The position numbers and the translations under genes were made by a program. A stretch of DNA of 27,000 bases from a virus, in the IMG/VR virus record IMGVR_UViG_3300021956_000067, positions 1 through 27,000 of that record; one strand, written 5' to 3'. Positions within the stretch are counted from its first letter, which is position 1. Each line of letters starts with the position of its first letter. Of this stretch, positions 4,720 through 19,914 are shown in pieces. A model generated the notes under the pieces. That model had not been told where the DNA came from. It saw only the letters and a list, made by a program, of their open reading frames with translations, and made no database searches.

Positions 4720-5027
4720 TGAACGATCCAAGAGATTCTGAAATCCGTGCTGCTGTGGAACGGCGTCGTGCTGATGACACCAAAATAATGCAGAAGGTCA
4801 ATGCTGTGAACCGTGAAGCTTTCTACCTGAAGTTTCCTGGGCAGCTTGAGCACATTCAGCGACTGACCTCTGAACGACTCATGCACTGCCTAAACAAGCC
4901 ACCTGGCACGGACCTTGACAGTCCAGACACTTGGCCAGCCACAGCTGAAGAGATCGCAGACCTGGCTCATGCCCTGTATCACATTGATCAGGTGCGTCAG
5001 GTCTGGTGCAAACCCACACAGGAGTAA
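4719..5027 (+). CDS. Hypothetical 102-aa helical protein
   Basis: Encodes 102 residues, mostly helical and charged, starting MNDPRDSEIRAAVERRRADD. The start ATG overlaps the TGA of the 259-aa gene, which implies coupling; a longer in-frame version from TTG 4701 would lie inside that gene. GGAG near its end serves the next gene, the methyltransferase, whose GTG starts 3 bases after this stop. A small-terminase role is conceivable from size and position next to the large subunit, but no helix-turn-helix can be made out. Confidence 0.7.
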   Translation: MNDPRDSEIRAAVERRRADDTKIMQKVNAVNREAFYLKFPGQLEHIQRLTSERLMHCLNKPPGTDLDSPDTWPATAEEIADLAHALYHIDQVRQVWCKPTQE

Positions 5028-5030
5028 ACT

Positions 5031-5570
5031 GTGCTGTATGACATAATCTATGCTGATCCACCTTGGCATTATGCTGCACGGAAAACAGGAACCAAGTTTG
5101 GTGGTGGGGTCACTGACAAGTATCCCACAATGACCATACCTGAAATCTGTGCTGTGCCTGTGCCAGCCGCGGCGGATTCAGTGTTGCTGATGTGGACCAC
5201 AATGCCCTATCTTGACCGCTGCATTGAACAGGTCATACCAGCCTGGGGATTCCGCTACATTACCTGTGCGTTTACCTGGGTCAAGACCAATCCACAGTCG
5301 GGCACCATATTCAAGGGTGTGGGCAACTATACCAAATCCAATGCTGAACTGTGCCTGTTGGCCAAACGTGGTGCAGGACTGCCAAGAGTGCATCGTGATG
5401 TGGCACAGGTTGTGCTGGAACCACGCAGAGAACACAGTCGCAAGCCTGATCGTGTGCGAGATGACATTGTGCGATTGTTTGGCGACAGACCCAGACTGGA
5501 AATGTTTGCCAGGACCACAGCACCTGGCTGGGCAGTGTGGGGCAACCAAACGGACAAGTTTGATGCTTGA
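5031..5570 (+). CDS. MT-A70 family adenine N6 methyltransferase
   Basis: Encodes 179 residues of an MT-A70-type DNA methyltransferase, which transfers a methyl group from S-adenosylmethionine to N6 of adenine. Seen: the catalytic DPPW at residues 9-12; NYTKSNAELCLLAKRG around residues 102-117, the SAM-side family motif; and the C-terminal block REHSRKPDRVRDDI followed by RLEMFART and GWAVWGNQ, a classic ending of phage members. The start is GTG, supported by GGAG 6 nt upstream; no ATG gives a complete N-terminus, since DPPW comes so early. Such enzymes can protect phage DNA against host restriction. No matching endonuclease is nearby, so it is a solitary enzyme here. Its end overlaps the large terminase start by 8 bases. 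Confidence 0.93.
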   Translation: MLYDIIYADPPWHYAARKTGTKFGGGVTDKYPTMTIPEICAVPVPAAADSVLLMWTTMPYLDRCIEQVIPAWGFRYITCAFTWVKTNPQSGTIFKGVGNYTKSNAELCLLAKRGAGLPRVHRDVAQVVLEPRREHSRKPDRVRDDIVRLFGDRPRLEMFARTTAPGWAVWGNQTDKFDA

Positions 5571-7173
5571 TCCCAATGTGTTAATGCGGCGTAGCCTGCG
5601 TTGGTGTCTGGACCAGCATGGCATCGCTCCTGAAGCCTACCGCACAATGACCACAGACCAGCAGCAGAAACTGCAGGAGTTTGTGATTGCCATTGCGGAT
5701 GACATGCAATACAACCAGCTGAAGTATTTCAGACCGTTTGAACATCAGACCAAGTTCTTTGTGACCTCAACTGACAGAAGAGGCATCCTTGCTGCTAACC
5801 GTATTGGCAAAACTGTTAGCACCTGTTATGAAACTGCAATGCATCTCACAGGACAGTATCCTGACTGGTGGACAGGCAAACGCTTTGCCAAACCCATCAC
5901 TGCCATGGTTGCTGGTGAAGGTTGGAGCCAGGTTGCACTGGTTCTACAGCAAGAACTACTGGGGTCTCAAGATGTTAAATTGGTTGAATCGCTTGGCACA
6001 GGTGCTGTTCCTCGTGACGCTATTGTGTTTGATACCATGCGTAATGATGGGGCAAACTGTATTGGTTGTGAAATTCGTCATAGTTCTGGTGGAAGGAGTT
6101 ATTTGCTGTTTGCTAACTACACCCAAGAAGTCAGACAGCTCCAGGGTTTCAAGCTTGACCTTGCGGTGTTTGATGAGCAACCCCCGGACGATTTCTTTAG
6201 TGAAATAGTCACACGAACTGCTACCACACAGGGCATGGTGCTGTGTTCGTTTACACCACTCAAAGGACTCAACGGCTTGGTAAGCAAGTTCTGGAACCGT
6301 GAACCAGGCTATGACTATGTGCGTGTGAGTTGGGATGATGTTCCAGAATATGACCTTTGGGGCGAACCATTCTTGTTGAACTCAACAAGGCAGCAGCTGG
6401 AGCGTGATTACTTGCCACACGAGCGTGAAGCACGTATTCAAGGCAAGCCAATCATGGGCAAGGGTGCTGTGTTCCAACTGCGTGAATGGCCCACATACAA
6501 AACAGGTGACTTCAACTTCCAGGAGATGCGAAACATCCACAGAGTTATCAGCTTGGACTTGGGCTTGGTCAACGACAAAACAGTGATCAGTTTGATCTAC
6601 TGGGATCCATATGAACGCACAGCTTGGCTGCATCGCCAGATTGTGGTGCAGGGTGTGGAGGAGGCTGTGCCCACACAGTATATCAACCATCTCTTAAGAC
6701 CTGAAGTGTTTGGCACGCCCATTGTGCTGCCAGCTGATGCTTCAACACAGGGCCGCTACACCATGAGCTCAAACAGCATCCGCGAGCTGTTTGAACAGTA
6801 TGAACTCAATGTGTGGGAAAAGCCCATAATGAATCCTCCTGATCCACAAGGGCGTGTGACCAATCACAAAAGCTATGGTATCAACGCCATGCGGCAGATG
6901 TTGGAGTTTGGCACCTTGATGATCAATGAGAACTGCACTGACTTCCTGCGTGAAGCACAGAACTACTATGTAGACCAACAGGGCAGATTTTCAGACCCAG
7001 ATGATTGTATAGACTCAGCACGTTATGGCTTGCTGGCCTGCTTGCAGGGCATTGCTGAACCCTGGGACAATCGCACGCCTGCTGAAAGAATGGCAGCACA
7101 GCGAGATAGATACGTCAAACGAGATGATTCAAACAAAGCACCGTGGAAAAAGGCCTATGACCCAGCGGTGTAA
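5563..7173 (+). CDS. terL: Terminase large subunit (packaging ATPase and nuclease)
   Basis: Encodes 536 residues. The ATPase has Walker A (ANRIGKT, residues 78-84), Walker B (LAVFDEQ, Asp204-Glu205) and a coupling segment MVLCSFTPLKG (about 225-235). The nuclease domain shows RVISLDLG (Asp332), LPADAS (Asp392) and CIDSARYGL (Asp484) as likely metal ligands. It powers DNA translocation into the prohead through the portal and cuts the concatemer. The frame is open 117 codons further upstream, but that stretch overlaps the methyltransferase and lacks family features, so ATG 5563, overlapping the methyltransferase stop, is preferred; ATG 5584 is an alternative. The motif order is that of a complete, intact enzyme. 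Confidence 0.95.
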   Translation: MLDPNVLMRRSLRWCLDQHGIAPEAYRTMTTDQQQKLQEFVIAIADDMQYNQLKYFRPFEHQTKFFVTSTDRRGILAANRIGKTVSTCYETAMHLTGQYPDWWTGKRFAKPITAMVAGEGWSQVALVLQQELLGSQDVKLVESLGTGAVPRDAIVFDTMRNDGANCIGCEIRHSSGGRSYLLFANYTQEVRQLQGFKLDLAVFDEQPPDDFFSEIVTRTATTQGMVLCSFTPLKGLNGLVSKFWNREPGYDYVRVSWDDVPEYDLWGEPFLLNSTRQQLERDYLPHEREARIQGKPIMGKGAVFQLREWPTYKTGDFNFQEMRNIHRVISLDLGLVNDKTVISLIYWDPYERTAWLHRQIVVQGVEEAVPTQYINHLLRPEVFGTPIVLPADASTQGRYTMSSNSIRELFEQYELNVWEKPIMNPPDPQGRVTNHKSYGINAMRQMLEFGTLMINENCTDFLREAQNYYVDQQGRFSDPDDCIDSARYGLLACLQGIAEPWDNRTPAERMAAQRDRYVKRDDSNKAPWKKAYDPAV

Positions 7174-7188
7174 CAACAAAGGAACCCC

Positions 7189-7410
7189 ATGAGATCAATA
7201 GAGTTAGCAGAATACCTGGTGCTGCTGGGCGATGGTGCCACAGTGCTGTGTGAACGACACGCACAGGCCTTGGCTTCTGCGTTTGCTGCCGCACAACAGC
7301 CATTGGAAATGTATCCCATTGGACCAGAAGATGAAGAAGGCATGGCCACTGAAAATATGAGCTGCCAAGCCTGTCACATGGCAGCAGTCAAGGATTCCAC
7401 ACTACAATAA
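7189..7410 (+). CDS. Small Cys/His protein, possible zinc-binding (73 aa)
   Basis: Encodes 73 residues with CERHA (Cys21, His24) near the N-terminal third and CQACHMA (Cys59, Cys62, His63) near the end. The CxxH and CxxC-H pairs could bind one zinc ion. Similar small proteins lie near terminase and portal genes in other phages, with function unknown. AAAGGA gives a good ribosome binding site, and the gene starts 15 bases after the terminase stop. It ends before an intergenic stretch carrying a CTAAATA box. Confidence 0.7.
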   Translation: MRSIELAEYLVLLGDGATVLCERHAQALASAFAAAQQPLEMYPIGPEDEEGMATENMSCQACHMAAVKDSTLQ

Positions 7411-7430
7411 CCCTGGTTTAAGCCCCATCG

Positions 7431-7437
7431 CTAAATA
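7431..7437 (+). promoter_or_regulatory. CTAAATA late-promoter-like box before the portal
   Basis: CTAAATA lies 24 bases before the portal ATG. Unlike other copies, it leaves room for a leader containing the AAGGAAAA ribosome binding site, so the portal would have a conventional leadered mRNA. Confidence 0.45.
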
Positions 7438-7461
7438 AGATATCTACAAGGAAAAGTCCCA

Positions 7462-8202
7462 ATGTTGGATATCAAACAAATACCAGTTGACCAGATCAAT
7501 CAAAACCGCAAGATCAACGCCAACTTTGTAAGAATGAAAAACCAAATGGACGTCAAAATGGCGTCTTATTTGCGTTACCTGGCCACAAAAAATGCTGTCA
7601 ATCGTGCGAGTGATTATCATTATCTTTGTCTTGCTGTCACTGATTCAACTGCTCCGGTTAACGGCATTGATTATATCCATCCATCAGTGAAACCTGTGGT
7701 GGACTATGCCACTGCTGTGATTACCAAAGGCCTGGCTCCCAATGGCGAAATCAACTTTGAGTTTGTGGCTGATGGTGCTGATGATGAATACGCAGCACGC
7801 CAGGCTACAGAAATGGTCAGCCATGTTGTTAATGAAATGAACGATCCGCATTTTGTGCTGGAGCGTTGGGTCATGGATGCCAACATGCACAAAAACGGCA
7901 TGATGATGATCAAGCCTGTGCGTGAACCCATCACACGCTATGTTGAAACACAAGGCACCATGGATCAACTGCGTGCTTTTGAGCAGCAGGCCATTGACGG
8001 TGGACTCACACCTGTGCGTCAAAGCCGCAAGCGTGTATCAGTGGATCTGGAGCGTGTGGCTGCTGAAATGTCTGGTGGCATTCAGGGCCAGTTGGACGAG
8101 CATGTTCAAAGCCTAATCCAAGACCGTTTGGAATCAGCCAATCAAGAACAGGACATGGAAGACCTGGCAGCTGAAGGTGCTGAACACGCAGCAGCCATTT
8201 AA
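7462..8202 (+). CDS. Portal protein, N-terminal part (ends at an in-frame TAA)
   Basis: Encodes 246 residues, the N-terminal wing region of a P22-like podovirus portal: YIHPSVKPVVDYATAVITKG near residues 75-95, then ATEMVSHVVNEMN and the LERWVMDANMHKNGMMMIKP segment near 135-155, typical of the family. The portal is the dodecameric ring at one capsid vertex through which DNA is packed and ejected. The frame stops at TAA 8200-8202, but the same frame continues open five codons later into the rest of the portal. AAGGAAAA precedes the ATG. Either the gene is broken by one nonsense change, or two polypeptides are made. The product alone would lack clip and stem regions. Confidence 0.85.
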   Translation: MLDIKQIPVDQINQNRKINANFVRMKNQMDVKMASYLRYLATKNAVNRASDYHYLCLAVTDSTAPVNGIDYIHPSVKPVVDYATAVITKGLAPNGEINFEFVADGADDEYAARQATEMVSHVVNEMNDPHFVLERWVMDANMHKNGMMMIKPVREPITRYVETQGTMDQLRAFEQQAIDGGLTPVRQSRKRVSVDLERVAAEMSGGIQGQLDEHVQSLIQDRLESANQEQDMEDLAAEGAEHAAAI

Positions 8203-8217
8203 GGCGACCAAGAAGAC

Positions 8218-9738
8218 ATGCTGGCAGATGCCATTGCTCGCAACTCAATCTATGTGGCCAAATACAAGCTCACAGGCTACAACATCAAGATCAAATTCCA
8301 CCCCATTGCTCAACACTACTGGATCTGTGACCCCACTGTGCCAGAAATGCGTGACCAACCATTCTGTGGTTACTATGATCCCATGACAATCCAGGAAGCC
8401 ACAGAGCTGTATCCTGGTATCAACCTTGCTGAGTTTGAGCGTTTTGCTGAATACAACATGAATGGTGCGTATCAAGCAGGCTCAGTGCTCAACAACCTTG
8501 CTATCCACGCAAGAGATTCAGTGCCTGTCATGGGTATTCCTGTGTCAAGTGCTGCATCAGCGGACCCAGACAGTCGTCAGGTTTCAATTGTTACGGTATG
8601 GAACAAGTATGACATTGACGGGGACGGCGAGCTGGAACTGATTGAACTGATATATTCGGGCTCCTACATCATATCTGCCCGTGAAGTTGAATTCATCCCA
8701 GTGGCCAACATGTGTCCCAAGCCACTTCCTGGCAACTTCTACGGCATGAGCATTGCTGAAAGTGTGATTCCCATGCAGGAATACAACACTTCCGCAGCTC
8801 GTGCTGAAATCCAGTTGGGCTTGCTGACTGCCACTCCACGCATTGGTGTCAAACCAGACCGTGTGGATTTTGAAATGATGCAGGACGGCGAAGCTGCCAT
8901 CTTTATTCTTGATTCAAAGTTTGATCCTGCCAAAGACATCTACCCAATGCCAGCTCCTGCTGGCAACCTCCAGTTCTTGGAAGTGGCAATGACTCGTATC
9001 CAACAGGATACCATGGCCATGGTAGGCATGACCACGCCATCAGATGTGTTTAATCCAGAAGTTATGGCACCCGGCAACTCAGGGGTGAAACTTCAAATGG
9101 CTCTTACTCCCAATCAGATCATTCAAGACAACACTGTGCGTAACAGTGCAGATGGATTGAAGGAAGCACTATGGTTGGTCTGGCGAACCCTAATTCAATA
9201 CGGTGATGACTATGGTGTCAAACGCCTGGCACAAAAGAGTCACCCAGATGGCAAGCCAGAGTTCTTGGATTTCAAGGCCTGGGATGACATGAACTTCTGT
9301 GATCGCAAGCACATTCAGATTGAATTGGCCTTGGGCATGCAAAGTCAAGAGAATGCTTTGGGTCGTCTACAGATCATTCAGCAGGCACAGACACAGTTAT
9401 ACCAAACCACACAAGGCATGGTTGCGTCAGGCACGCTCACCCCTGAAATCTACGCCAAGGTCAAGAAGCCTTTTGCTGACACCTTGTATGTGTTGGGCGT
9501 AAAAGACTGCGATACCTACTTGCCGTCAGATGAAGAAGTCATGAAGATGATTGAAGCAGGCAAACAAGCTGCTGCCAACAAACAACCCAGCCCAACAGAA
9601 CAGAAAGATCTGTCTGTGGCCAAACTCAATGAAGCCAAGACACAGCAGATTGGTGCTGAACTACAGGGTCAAGACCCAGATACGCAACTTAACTACATGG
9701 CCATAGCAATGGGCAAGGCACAAGACTACGGTCACTAA
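8218..9738 (+). CDS. Portal protein, C-terminal part
   Basis: Encodes 506 residues in the same frame as the preceding part. Family features: KYDIDGDGELELIELIYSG near residues 123-141, then PLPGNFYGMSIAESVIPMQE, LLTATPRIGV and a long helical C-terminus with NAADGLKEAL-like segments and Gln-rich ends, all matching P22-like portals. ATG 8218 is the first Met after the TAA; the only ribosome-binding-like sequence is an AAGG 13 bases upstream, too far to be good. If TAA were a sense codon, the joined protein would be 758 residues, a normal size for this portal type. The split is therefore more likely a lesion or sequencing/population variant than two evolved genes, though reinitiation is possible. 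Confidence 0.85.
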   Translation: MLADAIARNSIYVAKYKLTGYNIKIKFHPIAQHYWICDPTVPEMRDQPFCGYYDPMTIQEATELYPGINLAEFERFAEYNMNGAYQAGSVLNNLAIHARDSVPVMGIPVSSAASADPDSRQVSIVTVWNKYDIDGDGELELIELIYSGSYIISAREVEFIPVANMCPKPLPGNFYGMSIAESVIPMQEYNTSAARAEIQLGLLTATPRIGVKPDRVDFEMMQDGEAAIFILDSKFDPAKDIYPMPAPAGNLQFLEVAMTRIQQDTMAMVGMTTPSDVFNPEVMAPGNSGVKLQMALTPNQIIQDNTVRNSADGLKEALWLVWRTLIQYGDDYGVKRLAQKSHPDGKPEFLDFKAWDDMNFCDRKHIQIELALGMQSQENALGRLQIIQQAQTQLYQTTQGMVASGTLTPEIYAKVKKPFADTLYVLGVKDCDTYLPSDEEVMKMIEAGKQAAANKQPSPTEQKDLSVAKLNEAKTQQIGAELQGQDPDTQLNYMAIAMGKAQDYGH

Positions 9739-9760
9739 TGAATTTTGAAAAGGAAATGCA

Positions 9761-11376: not shown

Positions 11377-12546
11377 ATGGCAGAAATCACCACAAGTCAA
11401 ATTGGTAACGGCACCACAGCCTATGGTTCAGACATCGTTGTCAAGGACCTGGACCTGGACGTATCCAACCGCGTCAAAGACGACACCCCTGTTCTAAACA
11501 TGGCCATGAGCAAGAAGCGTAAGGTCAACAGCACATTGCCGCTGTGGACTGACGACATCTATCGCTTGCCACAAGCTCAAGCCGTGCAAGAAGGTGCTGC
11601 TGTATCAACCAGCAACGCTGAAAGCAATGGTCGTTACAACCTGGGCAACTACACCCAGATCTTCCAAACCACAATCGCTGCATCAGGCACAGCTCGTGCT
11701 GTTATGCAAGCAGGTGGTGACCCACAAGCATATCAAGAAGTCAAGCAGCTGATTGAGCTGATGTTTGACGTTGAAATGCAATTGGTTCGTGCTGACCAGA
11801 TTGGAACACAATACAGTGGTCAATCAGGCACAGCAATCAGCCCAGCAACTGACCAGACAGAAGGTCGTCGTATGGGTTCGCTGAACGCTTTCGCTGGAAC
11901 ACACAGTTTCAACCCAAGCGGTGCAGCTATTGCCAACATCACAACCAACACCAACAACGCTAGCAGCGACAGCTCTACAGCCAACGTTGGTAACCTGGTA
12001 ATCAACTCAAACGGAACACAGTTCTACACTGGAACATTTACTAACCAAGTATTCCAGCCTGTGATTTACAAGCAGTTGGTTACAGTTGCTGAGCAACGTT
12101 ACAATGCCAAGATCCGCACCATGGTTGTTCCTACCAGCCTACGCACAATGATCTCTGACAACATTGTTAACTCAAACACCAGCATCAACCGTCGTAACGT
12201 TGAGCGTGGTGACACCATTCAAACTTATGAAGGTGACTTCAACTACACCTACGAAATCTATGATTCTTGGATCATGGATCAAGCTGGTGTAAGCGACCAA
12301 ATCTACTTCCTGAACGAAGACGTGCTCCAGTGGGGTAGTCTACGTGATCTGGGACCAAACAACGAAGTGTTCTCAAACGCTGACGCAAGTTTGGACCAGT
12401 TCTTGATGGAAGGAACATTGATTGTTCGCAACCCAGCTGGTGTTGGCGTATTGCACAACATCTCTACCACAGGTGCCAGCGTAAGCGGTCCTCGTGGAGC
12501 TGCGTTTGTTTCTCGCACCAACGCTGGTGCCGGCGACACCTACTGA
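11377..12546 (+). CDS. Major capsid protein (SU10/DUF5309-type)
   Basis: Encodes 389 residues of the family known from phage SU10 and relatives (DUF5309). Seen: an N-terminal Gly/Thr segment, TPVLNMAMSKKRKVNSTLPLW-like beginning of the core, a long helix around ELMFDVEMQLVRADQ, and GRRMGSLNAFAGT just after the spine helix, a hallmark region of these capsids. The C-terminal half is beta-rich. It forms the hexamers and pentamers of the icosahedral or elongated shell. GGAG precedes the ATG at good spacing, codon usage is regular, and a strong terminator follows, as expected of a highly expressed gene. Confidence 0.88.
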   Translation: MAEITTSQIGNGTTAYGSDIVVKDLDLDVSNRVKDDTPVLNMAMSKKRKVNSTLPLWTDDIYRLPQAQAVQEGAAVSTSNAESNGRYNLGNYTQIFQTTIAASGTARAVMQAGGDPQAYQEVKQLIELMFDVEMQLVRADQIGTQYSGQSGTAISPATDQTEGRRMGSLNAFAGTHSFNPSGAAIANITTNTNNASSDSSTANVGNLVINSNGTQFYTGTFTNQVFQPVIYKQLVTVAEQRYNAKIRTMVVPTSLRTMISDNIVNSNTSINRRNVERGDTIQTYEGDFNYTYEIYDSWIMDQAGVSDQIYFLNEDVLQWGSLRDLGPNNEVFSNADASLDQFLMEGTLIVRNPAGVGVLHNISTTGASVSGPRGAAFVSRTNAGAGDTY

Positions 12547-12605: not shown

Positions 12606-12637
12606 TTTGGGCAAAAACCCGCTATACTACCACCCTA

Positions 12638-12648: not shown

Positions 12649-13242
12649 ATGAGCCACGACATAAACCAACCTGAATACCTTGATGACAAGGATCCCGAAA
12701 AGAATCACGACTATTGGAGACAAGATCATGGTGGCATGGTCACCAATCACAATGGTATTGCTGACAAGTTGCTGAAAAACGATGAACTGTATCGTTCAAT
12801 GAAGGGCGATTGGTCAAGAACCAGCTGGAATGCCAGCCAAAACATTCGCACCACAACTGGTCGCGAAGATGGCAAGTTCTATATCCGTCGTGAGCAAATG
12901 AACGCTGAAGCAGTGGCTCGTCGCTGTCAAGAATACCGCAAGGCTGCTGAACAGGGATTTCCGGATCCCCTGGCACCCATTGGCGATGATGGTAAGCTGA
13001 CCTACAAATGGATGGACTTGCCCAATGTTGTGAGCATACGCATCAGTGATCAATACTTTGGTGGCATGCCCTGGGCAGCAATCAAACATGATCGCACACT
13101 CAAGGCTCAGTTCTACCGAGTGGTAGAAAAGGAATACAATCAATACGTTTGCTACCCAGGTGGCAAGTTGCCCATTCCCATTGATGTTCCGTATCCAACC
13201 AAGCAAGGGCAACAAAAGTTCTTTAAGGGACACACAATATGA
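12649..13242 (+). CDS. Hypothetical 197-aa head-tail region protein
   Basis: Encodes 197 residues, polar, rich in Asp, Asn, Lys, Arg and Tyr, with an N-terminal acidic, disordered-looking segment, a helical middle (MNAEAVARRCQEYRKAAEQG) and a C-terminus KLPIPIDVPYPTKQGQQKFF. No family is recognised. The start is ATG 12649, immediately after the TAAATA box; an upstream TTG lies inside the terminator-promoter region and is rejected. The stop overlaps the next ATG as ATGA, coupling it to the adaptor candidate. Position between capsid and adaptor suggests a head-completion or assembly role (inference). Confidence 0.7.
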   Translation: MSHDINQPEYLDDKDPEKNHDYWRQDHGGMVTNHNGIADKLLKNDELYRSMKGDWSRTSWNASQNIRTTTGREDGKFYIRREQMNAEAVARRCQEYRKAAEQGFPDPLAPIGDDGKLTYKWMDLPNVVSIRISDQYFGGMPWAAIKHDRTLKAQFYRVVEKEYNQYVCYPGGKLPIPIDVPYPTKQGQQKFFKGHTI

Positions 13243-13985
13243 GTTTCCAAATCCCCTCAGCAGATGACTTAGTTGATTTCATCAAAGACTTCACTGGCAG
13301 CACCAATGATGCTGAAATCAAAAAATGTATCTTCTTGGCTGAAATGTCAATGCGTAACGTGGAGCTGCCTGCACTGCGTTGCGATCCCTATGCTGTTGAA
13401 AACATTGGCGTGGCTGATCAGTATGGCAAGATACCAATCCCGCCAGACATGAACAAGCCCATCTTGTTCTTCAAACAAGGTCAGCCAGGAGGCAATCCCA
13501 GCAGTCAAACCGGACCATGGATTGTGTATGACCGTATTGGTGACAGAGACATCATCACACAGGGCATGATTGCTCAGTTGTATTTGCAACCTGTGAACGT
13601 GCCTGCTGTGATCCGTGGAAAGTTTTCAGAAGTGGGCGACAAGTATCAGTTCTTGCCGTATATTGGTGAGGGCGATCTCATCAACATGTATTACTACAAG
13701 GCCTGGCCTTTGTTGTTCTCACCTGTGGAAGGTGGTTCGCCAGGCGAAACAGTGCAATCAAATGCTGTGCTGGCCACTTGGCCTGAAGGCTATGTGTATG
13801 GCACACTACGTGAATACTACATCAAGCGTCACAATGACCAAGACGCAGCAACATACGCAGCCAAGTTTGACAATGCTTGGAACACAGTAGAGGATCAAAA
13901 CAATCTGGGCAAGTGGTCAGGTGGTCACACACGCCTAACTTCCGTTTGGCAACCAAGACAATATCGTCAATATAACATCAAGTAA
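13239..13985 (+). CDS. Putative head-tail adaptor (gp4-like)
   Basis: Encodes 248 residues with a helical N-terminal part (DDLVDFIKDFTGSTNDAEIKK, then FLAEMSMRNVELPALR) followed by a beta-rich middle with IPIPPDMNKPILFF and a late GYVYGTLREYYIKRHNDQDAATYAAKFDNAWN, a layout often seen in podovirus adaptor/tail-tubular A proteins, which attach below the portal and begin the tail. The ATGA overlap couples it to the upstream gene. It lies in the usual place between capsid and tail fibre genes. The call rests on layout and position rather than on a diagnostic motif. Confidence 0.55.
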   Translation: MSFQIPSADDLVDFIKDFTGSTNDAEIKKCIFLAEMSMRNVELPALRCDPYAVENIGVADQYGKIPIPPDMNKPILFFKQGQPGGNPSSQTGPWIVYDRIGDRDIITQGMIAQLYLQPVNVPAVIRGKFSEVGDKYQFLPYIGEGDLINMYYYKAWPLLFSPVEGGSPGETVQSNAVLATWPEGYVYGTLREYYIKRHNDQDAATYAAKFDNAWNTVEDQNNLGKWSGGHTRLTSVWQPRQYRQYNIK

Positions 13986-13996
13986 GGACTGGCACA

Positions 13997-16879
13997 ATGT
14001 CAACATCAAGTTTATACACTTTTGGTAGCACAGCCAATGTCAGTGCCAACAACTTTACTACGCTTTACAATGCCGGCGGTCAGAATATCACGCCCAGCAC
14101 AGGATATGGCAACGCCAATGTGGAAAGCTTTTTGGCTGAGGGCACAGATGGTGGCAACACCATTGGTAATATCAAAGCCACAGGCAACATTTCTACCACA
14201 GGTAATGTGCTGGCCAATGCAGGTGTTTACGCTGCCAACTACTACTATGCCAACGGTGCTCCGCTAAACACACAAGGCAACTATTCAAATGCCAATGTGG
14301 CAGCATACTTGCCCACATACACAGGCAACTTGGCTGGTGGCAATCTTGCTATCACACATGACGCTGTGGTTTCTGGCAACATTACTTCTGGTATCAACAT
14401 CACTTCAGGTGCTGACATTCAAGCTACAGGCAATATCCGCACACTGGGCCCGTCTGGCAACATCACAGGCGTAAACTATGTCAGTGCCAGCTACTATTTG
14501 GGCGATGGCGGCTTGCTGTCAAACATTGGTGGCAGCTATGGCAACGCCAATGTCAGTGCATACTTGGCTGCTGGTATCTCCAGCAACATTGTCACAACTG
14601 GTAATATCACAGGCAACTACATTTTTGGTAATGGCAGCCAACTAACTGGCTTGCCAGCAACTTATTCAAATGCCAATGTGGTATCACTGCTGGCCAACTT
14701 TGGCAGCAATGTGATTTCAACCACTGGCAACATTGACGCTGGCAACATTTCAGCGACAGGCAACATCACTGTGGCTGGTAGTTTGAATTCAGATGACATC
14801 ACATCAGCTGGTGTTACAGTTTATGGTGATCAGATCATCACAGGCAACTTGACTGTTCAAGGCACAACCACAACAATCAATTCAAACACCATTGTTACCA
14901 ATGACAAAACCATTACAGTGGCCAATAACCAATCAACAGCAGCCAATGTCAACGGTGCTGGCTTGGAAGCAGGCAATCCTGCTGTGGCTACCTTGCTTTA
15001 CAATGCTCTAACCAACAGTTGGCAAAGCAATGTGGGCGTTACGCCTGTGGCCAACCTTACACAAGAACTGGGCAACAACCAAAACCGTTGGAGCACAGTG
15101 TATGCAGGTGCCATTGACGCTTCTGGCAATGTGTCAGCAGCAGGCAATGTGGCTGGTGAATATGTTATAGCCAACACAGCACTGTGGTTTGGTAGTGACA
15201 CACCAAGTGAAGCCATTACTGCTGATAACTTGACCATGAACTTTGTGACTAATGGTCAAACAAGATTGAGTATCACCTCTGGTGGCGGCAACCTGCAAGG
15301 TAACTTGATCCTAAACAACTCAATTGGCAACGGTATTCTCAACAGTTATGGTGTTGTGGCCAATGGCAACATCTTAGCATCTGGCTTTGTAAGTGCTGCA
15401 GGCAATGTCACAGGTGCCAATGTCAACACTGATTATGTAAACTTTGGATCTGGTTATGGTAACCTCACTGGTGGAGAACTGTATCTTGGCAACACCCTGG
15501 GCAGCTATCAGAATCAGGTTCGCTTGGTGGCCAATCAGAACATTGGTTATTTGCAAGTTGGCACCACAGGCAGCAATGGTTTATTCAGATTCAGCAAATG
15601 GTTGAACGCCAACACTGCTCTGGAAGTTGATACTGCCAACAATCGTGTGGGTATCAACAAAAATGCTCCTACAGTGGCATTGGATGTGGCTGGCGAGATA
15701 TCAGCCACAGGCAATATCACAGGCAACTATATCCTGGGCAATGGTTCACAGTTGACTGGGCTACCTGAGATTTATGGCAATGCCAATGTGGCCACATTCT
15801 TGGCAGCATTTGGTTCAAATACTATTGTGACCACAGGCAATATCACAGCGGGCAACTTCATTGGGTCTGGTGCTTATTTGAGCAGTTTGCCAGCAGGCAA
15901 TGTAACAGGAACTGTAAGCAGTGCCAATGTGGCCAGCCTGGTCAATGTTAGCAATGCCAACTCAACGTCTGGTAGTTCATATTACATGGCATTTGCCAGT
16001 GGTCCAGGCAACAATCAAGTTCAGATAGATGATTTTGGTCAAGGATTTACTTACACACCGAGCTCTGGAACCATTTACACCACACAAGGTTTATTCAGTG
16101 GCAATGTCACAGCGTCTGGCAATGTGATTGCTGGCAATGTAACCACAACTGGATTGATCACAGCCGCAGGTAACATTATAACCACTGGCAACATCTCAGG
16201 AAACTATTACATTGGTAATGGTTCGTTGTTGACAGGTATTGTTGCTGTTTCCAGTTACGGCAATGCCAACGTTGTGGCCAACCTGGCTGCATTGGGATCA
16301 AACCCAATCAGTTCAACTGGTAACATCACAACCACTGCCAATATTTCTGGCAACTACTTCCTGGGCAATGGATCGCAGTTGACTGGATTGCCAGCCACTT
16401 ACGGCAACGCCAACGTAGCAGCCAATTTGGCAGCATTTGGTTCTAATCCAATCAGTTCTACAGGCAATATCACAACCACTGCCAACGTATCAGCCAACTA
16501 CTATCTTGGTAATGGTTCGCAGTTGACAGGTATCTCAGCCAGTTTGCCAGCCAACATCACAGGCAATGTGTTTACATCTGTAGTCTACAGTTATGGTAAT
16601 GCCACAGGCACAATAACACCTGATATCAGTTTAGGTTCTATCCAGACCATGACCTTGACAGGCAACATCACACTCAACAGTTTGGCCAACGTCAACACAG
16701 GACAGACAGCAACATTTGTGATTTCGCAAGATGCCACAGGCAACAGACTGCTCACAAGCACCTGGAAGTTTGCGTCCAACGTTCGCACATTGTCAACAGC
16801 AGCCAATGCCATTGATATGATTTCTGTTAGCTACATTGGCAATACATATTACGCATCACTGATCAGAGGATTCCTATAA
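13997..16879 (+). CDS. Tail fibre with repeated TGN/LGNGSQLTG modules
   Basis: Encodes 960 residues. Most is built of repeated modules with the pattern TGNITGNYILGNGSQLTGLP followed by TYGNANVA and LAAFGSN; clear copies begin near residues 205, 573, 730, 778 and 826. Residues about 285-385 contain TTINSNTIVTNDKTITVANN and NRWSTVYAGAI, a segment shared with fibres of T4-like and aquatic phages. The last 90 residues (SQDATGNRLLTSTWKF, then IDMISVSYIGNTYYASLI) form a conserved C-terminal domain also present in the second fibre here. Such proteins are trimeric beta fibres that reach the host receptor. AAGGA precedes the ATG; its TAA overlaps the ATG of the next gene (TAATG). Confidence 0.88.
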   Translation: MSTSSLYTFGSTANVSANNFTTLYNAGGQNITPSTGYGNANVESFLAEGTDGGNTIGNIKATGNISTTGNVLANAGVYAANYYYANGAPLNTQGNYSNANVAAYLPTYTGNLAGGNLAITHDAVVSGNITSGINITSGADIQATGNIRTLGPSGNITGVNYVSASYYLGDGGLLSNIGGSYGNANVSAYLAAGISSNIVTTGNITGNYIFGNGSQLTGLPATYSNANVVSLLANFGSNVISTTGNIDAGNISATGNITVAGSLNSDDITSAGVTVYGDQIITGNLTVQGTTTTINSNTIVTNDKTITVANNQSTAANVNGAGLEAGNPAVATLLYNALTNSWQSNVGVTPVANLTQELGNNQNRWSTVYAGAIDASGNVSAAGNVAGEYVIANTALWFGSDTPSEAITADNLTMNFVTNGQTRLSITSGGGNLQGNLILNNSIGNGILNSYGVVANGNILASGFVSAAGNVTGANVNTDYVNFGSGYGNLTGGELYLGNTLGSYQNQVRLVANQNIGYLQVGTTGSNGLFRFSKWLNANTALEVDTANNRVGINKNAPTVALDVAGEISATGNITGNYILGNGSQLTGLPEIYGNANVATFLAAFGSNTIVTTGNITAGNFIGSGAYLSSLPAGNVTGTVSSANVASLVNVSNANSTSGSSYYMAFASGPGNNQVQIDDFGQGFTYTPSSGTIYTTQGLFSGNVTASGNVIAGNVTTTGLITAAGNIITTGNISGNYYIGNGSLLTGIVAVSSYGNANVVANLAALGSNPISSTGNITTTANISGNYFLGNGSQLTGLPATYGNANVAANLAAFGSNPISSTGNITTTANVSANYYLGNGSQLTGISASLPANITGNVFTSVVYSYGNATGTITPDISLGSIQTMTLTGNITLNSLANVNTGQTATFVISQDATGNRLLTSTWKFASNVRTLSTAANAIDMISVSYIGNTYYASLIRGFL
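16256..16543 (+). repeat. Tandem 144-bp repeat inside the first fibre gene (2 copies)
   Basis: Copy 1 (16256-16399) and copy 2 (16400-16543) align over their length, each encoding 48 residues that include NANV, SNPISSTGNITTTAN and LGNGSQLTG. They differ mostly at third codon positions. Diverged copies occur elsewhere in both fibre genes. Confidence 0.8.
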
Positions 16880-17936: not shown

Positions 17937-18085
17937 GTGGTGGTGTTGAGATTGGTTCTGGCATTGAGATTGGTTCTGGCATCACCATTGGTGATGTTGT
18001 GGCCTACAATGTAGAATTCATCACTGAAGATGGTGTTTACTATTTCATCACAGAAGATGGCCTAACCCTAATTGAGGAACAATAA
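17933..18085 (+). CDS. 50-aa protein with internal repeats
   Basis: Encodes 50 residues made largely of two short repeats: EIGSGIEIGSGITIG near the start and FITEDGVYYFITEDG near the end. ATG 17933 is chosen because it overlaps the previous TGA as ATGA; its TAA overlaps the second fibre's ATG as TAATG. The beta-type repeats suggest an extended fibre-like element. The function is unknown. Confidence 0.65.
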   Translation: MSGGVEIGSGIEIGSGITIGDVVAYNVEFITEDGVYYFITEDGLTLIEEQ

Positions 18086-19914
18086 TGACAACGGGAAATA
18101 TCAAATTCAGTCAACTACCCAATCTACCAGCAGCCAATATCACTGCTGCTACGATTGCTCCTGTGGTTGAAAACAACACCAACTACAAGGTCACTTTGGC
18201 CAACTTGACCAGTTACATCAACAATGGTGGCAACATCACAGCAACCACAATAAGTGCGTCAGGCAACATTACAGGTGATTACTTTATTGGTGATGGTTCA
18301 CAATTAACCAACTTGCCAACCTCACCATTAGCAGGCACTGCTACTGGTGATATTGACATGAATGCTTACGCATTGAGATCTGGTTTGATCACTTCTACAT
18401 CTACGTCGTCGCCATATAATTTGGATCTTTTTGTCACAACCAACTACGCAGGTTATGGTGGTGGTGCTGGTGGTGCTGTGTATTTGGGAACTGAGAATGG
18501 CCCTACTGCTGAAGCACAAGCCAATATTTCTGTTGGTAGCAGCTGCAGAATCAAGGCCAATGTTATTGGAGTGTATCTTGGAACCACAACATCTGTCTCT
18601 GGCGATGTTTACGCCACTGGCGTTTATCATGGTGATGGCAGCGGATTGAGCAATGTGTCTTCAACACTGCCCAGCACATTCACTGTGACAGGTAACATTG
18701 TGGGTGGCAACCTAAGTGCCACAGGTAATGTCACAGGCAATTATATTCTGGGCAATGGTAGCCAACTCACCGGCCTGCCATCTACATATTCAAACGCACA
18801 AGTTGCCACATATCTGGCGTCTGGCAATGTGACCAGCAACATTATCACCACAGGCAACATCACAGGTGCTGTGCATATTGGTTCTGGTGCTGCGTTAACC
18901 AATTTGCCAGCAGCCAACATTGTGGGCACAGTGGCCAATGCAACCTATGCTACCACTGCTGGCACAGCAACATCGGCTACCACTGCTGCCAATGCAACCT
19001 ATGCTACCACAGCTGGCACAGCAACTTCAGCTACCACAGCTACCACAGCCACTTCAGCTACTACAGCTACTACCGCAGTCACAGTGACTTCAGCCAGTCA
19101 GCCTGCTATTACCAGTGTGGGCACGCTGACCAGTTTGAGTGTGAGTGGCAACGTCACAGCCAACTACTTTGTTGGTAATGGATCAGCATTGACTGGTATA
19201 ACAGCATCTGCTGGCAATAGCATTGTGAGTGGCAATAGTTTTGCCAACGTGGCTGTGGCCAATGGCAAAGTTTGGATCAACGGTGGCAATACAATTGGTT
19301 ACTATAATCTGGCCAACGTAACAGGTTTGCAAAGCAACACAATGATTATCACCAATGGTGCCAGCAATGCCTATGTCACATTGGCAGGCTCTGGTGATAT
19401 TGTATTAAATCCAGCCCAAAGTGGTGTTTTAAGCACTGGAAACGTGTATCTGTCAACTCTGCGAATCCAAAGCAGATCATTGACCAATGCTGCTGATGGC
19501 ACATTCAGCGGCACTGTTGATACCAATGCGTTAACTGTAAATGCCAATGCTGTAGTATATGGCACTTTGTCTGTGAGTGGCAAAACCACGCTTGGTCCTT
19601 ATGTCCAAACTGTGGTCACTGTTGGTAATACCAGCACATCTATAACACCCAATGCCAGCACAGCTCCTGTGTTGAAGTTCACGGCAAACAACAACTTTAC
19701 ACTGAATGTGCCATCAAATATGACTGCGGGTCAAAGTCTGACCATGATTTTCACACAAGATGCCACAGGCAACAGAGTGATGACTGCCAACACCGCATAC
19801 AAGTTTGCCTATGGTGTGAACACCCTAAGCACCACAGCCAGTTCAACTGACGTGCTCACAGTGTTCTATGATGGCACCAACTATCTAACCAACCTAATCA
19901 AAGGATACGCATAA
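18085..19914 (+). CDS. Second tail fibre (paralogous C-terminus)
   Basis: Encodes 609 residues. It contains two modules of the TGNYILGNGSQLTGLP type (near residues 65 and 225), an Ala/Thr-rich stretch (about 285-335) with NATYATTAGTATSATTA twice and then short ATS/ATT repeats, a SASQPAITSVGTLTSLSVSGN segment widely found in phage fibres, and a last domain TFTQDATGNRVMTANTAYKFA-like that is clearly homologous to the end of the first fibre. It starts by a TAATG overlap and ends by a TAATG overlap with the glycine-rich gene. Likely a second receptor-binding fibre or an arm of the same apparatus. Confidence 0.87.
   Translation: MTTGNIKFSQLPNLPAANITAATIAPVVENNTNYKVTLANLTSYINNGGNITATTISASGNITGDYFIGDGSQLTNLPTSPLAGTATGDIDMNAYALRSGLITSTSTSSPYNLDLFVTTNYAGYGGGAGGAVYLGTENGPTAEAQANISVGSSCRIKANVIGVYLGTTTSVSGDVYATGVYHGDGSGLSNVSSTLPSTFTVTGNIVGGNLSATGNVTGNYILGNGSQLTGLPSTYSNAQVATYLASGNVTSNIITTGNITGAVHIGSGAALTNLPAANIVGTVANATYATTAGTATSATTAANATYATTAGTATSATTATTATSATTATTAVTVTSASQPAITSVGTLTSLSVSGNVTANYFVGNGSALTGITASAGNSIVSGNSFANVAVANGKVWINGGNTIGYYNLANVTGLQSNTMIITNGASNAYVTLAGSGDIVLNPAQSGVLSTGNVYLSTLRIQSRSLTNAADGTFSGTVDTNALTVNANAVVYGTLSVSGKTTLGPYVQTVVTVGNTSTSITPNASTAPVLKFTANNNFTLNVPSNMTAGQSLTMIFTQDATGNRVMTANTAYKFAYGVNTLSTTASSTDVLTVFYDGTNYLTNLIKGYA
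18934..19041 (+). repeat. 54-bp tandem repeat (2 copies) plus short repeats in the second fibre
   Basis: Two 54-bp copies (18934-18987, 18988-19041) encode NATYATTAGTATSATTAA-type sequence. They are followed by shorter GCTACC/ACAGCC-based repeats to about 19080. Such repeats can change copy number by slippage or recombination and so alter fibre length. Confidence 0.75.

Follow-up and report, generated by a model that had tools for sequence, protein, structure and literature searches.

An in-frame TAA codon that interrupts the portal gene of an uncultured short-tailed phage is, with a probability that we put at about nine in ten from sequence comparison, a sporadic, private and non-adaptive nonsense base in a normal SU10-type portal, rather than a conserved or engineered split of the gene. 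The codon was seen in one contig only, a stretch of a twin contig that is identical but for this one base has no stop there, and more than 100 relatives are free of stops, all of which argues for a one-off mutation or sequencing error and not for a portal made in two pieces. A single-base change from the glutamine codon CAA to TAA would have interrupted an otherwise normal gene. The changed base may belong to a genuine allele carried by a defective or minority genome, which would then depend on a co-infecting phage for wild-type portal, or it may be a base error in the contig, and we give these two options about equal weight.

The interrupted gene

The portal gene occupies positions 7462–9738, on the plus strand, of the window (the whole 27,000-nucleotide stretch of viral DNA that was analysed). 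Its TAA, codon 247 at 8200–8202 (plus strand), is in frame with both the ATG at 7462 and the stop at 9736–9738, and the frame is open again after it up to that stop. The next in-frame ATG is at 8218, with only 15 bases between it and the TAA. The gene is in this way annotated as two ORFs on the plus strand: an N-terminal fragment of 246 aa (7462–8202) and a C-terminal fragment of 506 aa (8218–9738) that begins at the internal ATG. A preliminary description of the window had reported this division of a single frame and noted that a joined protein of 758 aa would be of normal size. Both the ORFs and their coordinates were confirmed, and the frame read through the TAA has 758 positions, in keeping with the 751–767 aa of most relatives.

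The same description called the portal P22-like, an assignment that did not survive: the sole Pfam match is SU10_portal and the sole PHROG match is phrog_1216, and a P22-like portal was rejected. These profiles place the interrupted gene among the SU10-type portals (Pfam PF23899). Both halves match SU10_portal and phrog_1216 in register, and the two fragments fit the SU10_portal profile in order, the N-terminal one over profile positions 49–151. The pieces score 43.2 and 126.1 bits against PF23899 and the intact gene of the twin contig 167.2 bits, where the curated cut-off for membership is 30 bits. The gene lies between a terminase large subunit (TerL) gene at 5563–7173 and two genes that are likewise of SU10 type, an SU10_MCP major capsid gene at 11377–12546 and an SU10_adaptor gene at 13239–13985. 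SU10 gp6 is a dodecameric portal (PMC9509320). The likeness to this SU10-type (Kuravirus) portal lies in the profile match of both fragments and in the capsid and adaptor genes nearby; the sequence similarity is remote only (best PDB match, E = 5.5e-12), and the private stop is a feature of the gene described here. The portal of the uncultured podovirus MW202484 (ctfne034, Manatee Spring) is 51% identical and shares the terminase–portal gene order, but its gene is intact and its helical hairpin is shorter where the window has the stop.

Just upstream of the terminase gene, and overlapping its start, the window also holds an MT-A70-type DNA methyltransferase gene (5031–5570), which is present in only a handful of related loci.

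The twin contig and the portal family

The IMG/VR contig IMGVR_UViG_3300021952_000242 (L002) was returned by a search of viral contigs with each portal piece, and in it the portal is a single ORF of 757 aa. Window positions 4903–9675 (plus strand) align to it without gaps and with one mismatch in 4,773 bases. This sole mismatch is at 8200, where the window has T and L002 has C, giving TAA in the one and CAA (Gln) in the other; the C-to-T step that the preliminary description had postulated is thus seen directly. We scanned the whole viral collection for the exact pattern with either C or T permitted at 8200, a scan that may omit records very close to the window; it returned only L002, with CAA, and no second contig with the stop. 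A near-identical second contig of this kind settles most of the question that the stop raises.

Apart from the CAA codon, the L002 portal differs from that of the window at its 3′ end. Beyond 9675 the two sequences diverge, and in L002 the last ~20 portal residues take a different form, one typical of the family. The portal is followed there by an HNH-endonuclease-like ORF of 111 aa and then by the next gene, which is 96.8% identical to that of the window. With a different 3′ end, L002 is not strictly the same genome as the window: either the two are separate genotypes that are nearly identical, or a chimaeric 3′ end is present in one of the contigs. That L002 could itself be the chimaeric contig is a point against our preferred reading of the TAA as a private nonsense base.

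The HNH-like ORF lies between the portal and the next gene at L002:4858–5193 (window 9739–9760) and is missing from the window. No relative of it was found in the other viral contigs scanned. The bases flanking it differ from those of the window, as expected near a mobile endonuclease.

We compared the gene with its relatives at 222 loci, 199 of which cover more than 90% of the portal in one piece; they comprise 108 distinct sequences, L002 included. Alignment to related portals had been proposed in the preliminary description as a way to see which residue occupies the site, and it gave a clear result: a sense codon stands there in 108 of 108 distinct sequences, encoding mostly L, V, I or A, and Q in L002 only. 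In fact none of the 108 (222 loci) has an in-frame stop anywhere in the portal. The methionine that would restart translation, residue 253, is Met in 3 of the 108 and Ile, Val or Leu in nearly all, and a conserved restart was accordingly rejected. An evolved split gene, which should show both a shared stop and a conserved restart in relatives, is therefore contradicted by both counts (0/108 stops and 3/108 Met), including by the measure that the preliminary description had itself set out for such a split.

The TAA falls within a variable helical hairpin of about residues 196–260 (8047–8241, plus strand), recognized by its low conservation, by a structure model and by its shortening in MW202484. 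Residues 221–240 are the least conserved stretch of the portal, with a mean identity of 0.31. An AlphaFold model places helices at 196–225 and 232–260 between strands, with a local pLDDT of about 61–89; the monomer model as a whole is weak (mean pLDDT 56), too weak for a fold search. In the 51%-identical MW202484 portal the hairpin is mostly deleted. A chain break here would be better tolerated than elsewhere, which is again a counterpoint to a purely disruptive base.

Restart, readthrough and intron

These features bear on the possibility of a functional two-piece portal, in which translation would terminate at the TAA and reinitiate at ATG 8218, and the two chains would co-assemble. The short distance between stop and ATG and the position of the break in the variable hairpin, mostly missing from the MW202484 portal, speak for it, as does a modest Shine-Dalgarno match: an AAGG lies 12–13 nt upstream of ATG 8218, and its energy of –4.7 kcal/mol surpasses that of about 89% of internal ATGs (the intact twin has –4.0). 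Against it, the spacing exceeds the 5–10 nt of genuine starts, the stop occurs in no relative, the ATG is not conserved, and the twin is identical bar the stop base, so that nothing has evolved around the stop. The preliminary description had judged the ribosome binding site poor; this is right as to spacing, but the AAGG match is present and makes some restart physically possible. Lying too far upstream and being nearly alike in the intact twin, the match does not amount to an evolved restart signal. Restart at ATG 8218 is possible, to go by the sequence, and nothing suggests that it evolved. A literature search turned up no description of a split portal, and we consider a functional two-piece portal very improbable. 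A portal of this kind that arose recently, with the stop fixed in the strain and chains joined in the variable hairpin that still assemble, seems slightly less probable again. Were the stop both fixed and functional, the portal ring would tolerate a break in its chain, and nothing found supports such a case.

Readthrough or recoding, by which an amino acid would be inserted at the TAA and full-length portal made, would agree with a frame that is open on both sides of the TAA and with the Gln found there in the twin. TAA is, however, the commonest terminator, ending 16 of the 22 listed ORFs of the window (the portal stop itself counted), and the TAA at 5025–5027 is a gene end conserved in 98 relatives. 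ARAGORN found no tRNA gene, and hence no suppressor tRNA, in the window, which is a fragment, so that a tRNA may lie elsewhere. The recoding that one study describes in phages concerns TAG and TGA (PMC11210395). With TAA the commonest terminator, a single internal case and a window devoid of tRNA genes, the sequence does not look like that of a stop-recoded phage. Terminator usage and the missing tRNA led us to reject recoding of TAA, and we regard readthrough as more doubtful than either form of two-piece portal. Even taken together, a functional two-piece portal and a readthrough portal are improbable.

An intron or other insertion, whose removal would restore the gene, has a precedent of sorts among related contigs, where a group I intron splits the major capsid gene in two cases. 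It is excluded here: the gap-free alignment to L002 has no extra bases, and Rfam gives no match in the window. The group I intron just mentioned is ~250 nt long, contains no ORF and splits an SU10-type major capsid gene after about codon 32 (L242:5089–5313, and L243; Rfam RF00028, 64.8 bits). The two related contigs come from different samples and are the same contig pair as L121/L123.

Of the options that the preliminary description had left side by side, a lesion, a population variant or a sequencing error is thus supported, given the single base that separates window and twin and a stop found in no relative; readthrough and an evolved two-piece portal fall away, there being no conserved stop or restart and no recoding.

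Nonsense codons elsewhere and other features of the window

A second private stop was found in the portal at locus L283, one of 68 loci related to the MW202484 portal: an in-frame TAA at codon 652 (L283:4094–4096), whose counterpart in four close relatives is GAA. The major capsid gene of L060/L127 and a scaffold-like gene of L091 likewise carry private nonsense codons, both near contig ends. Singleton nonsense codons are thus a recurrent, low-rate feature of contigs of this kind. A random substitution in the stretch shared with L002 has a chance of about 3.8% of creating a stop, which makes one nonsense change unremarkable across the many genes scanned. No other in-frame stop was found in the window genes that were checked, and general decay of the contig was rejected on this ground. 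Two apparent stops in relatives' TerL genes are no lesions, as they sit a short way upstream of the true start codon, and those in relatives of the gene at 12607 are situated at gene ends.

The result for the portal is an ordinary one. It does carry a caution: when a metagenomic contig has one private nonsense base, annotation divides an essential gene in two, and the outcome can pass for a split protein. No relatives were found in genome contigs, and we infer no host.

Downstream, the window encodes two large, repetitive, G/N/T-rich tail-like proteins (13997–16879 and 18085–19914) in which the motif 'GNGSQLTGL' recurs. The first of these proteins matches PF06598, the Chlorovirus glycoprotein repeat.
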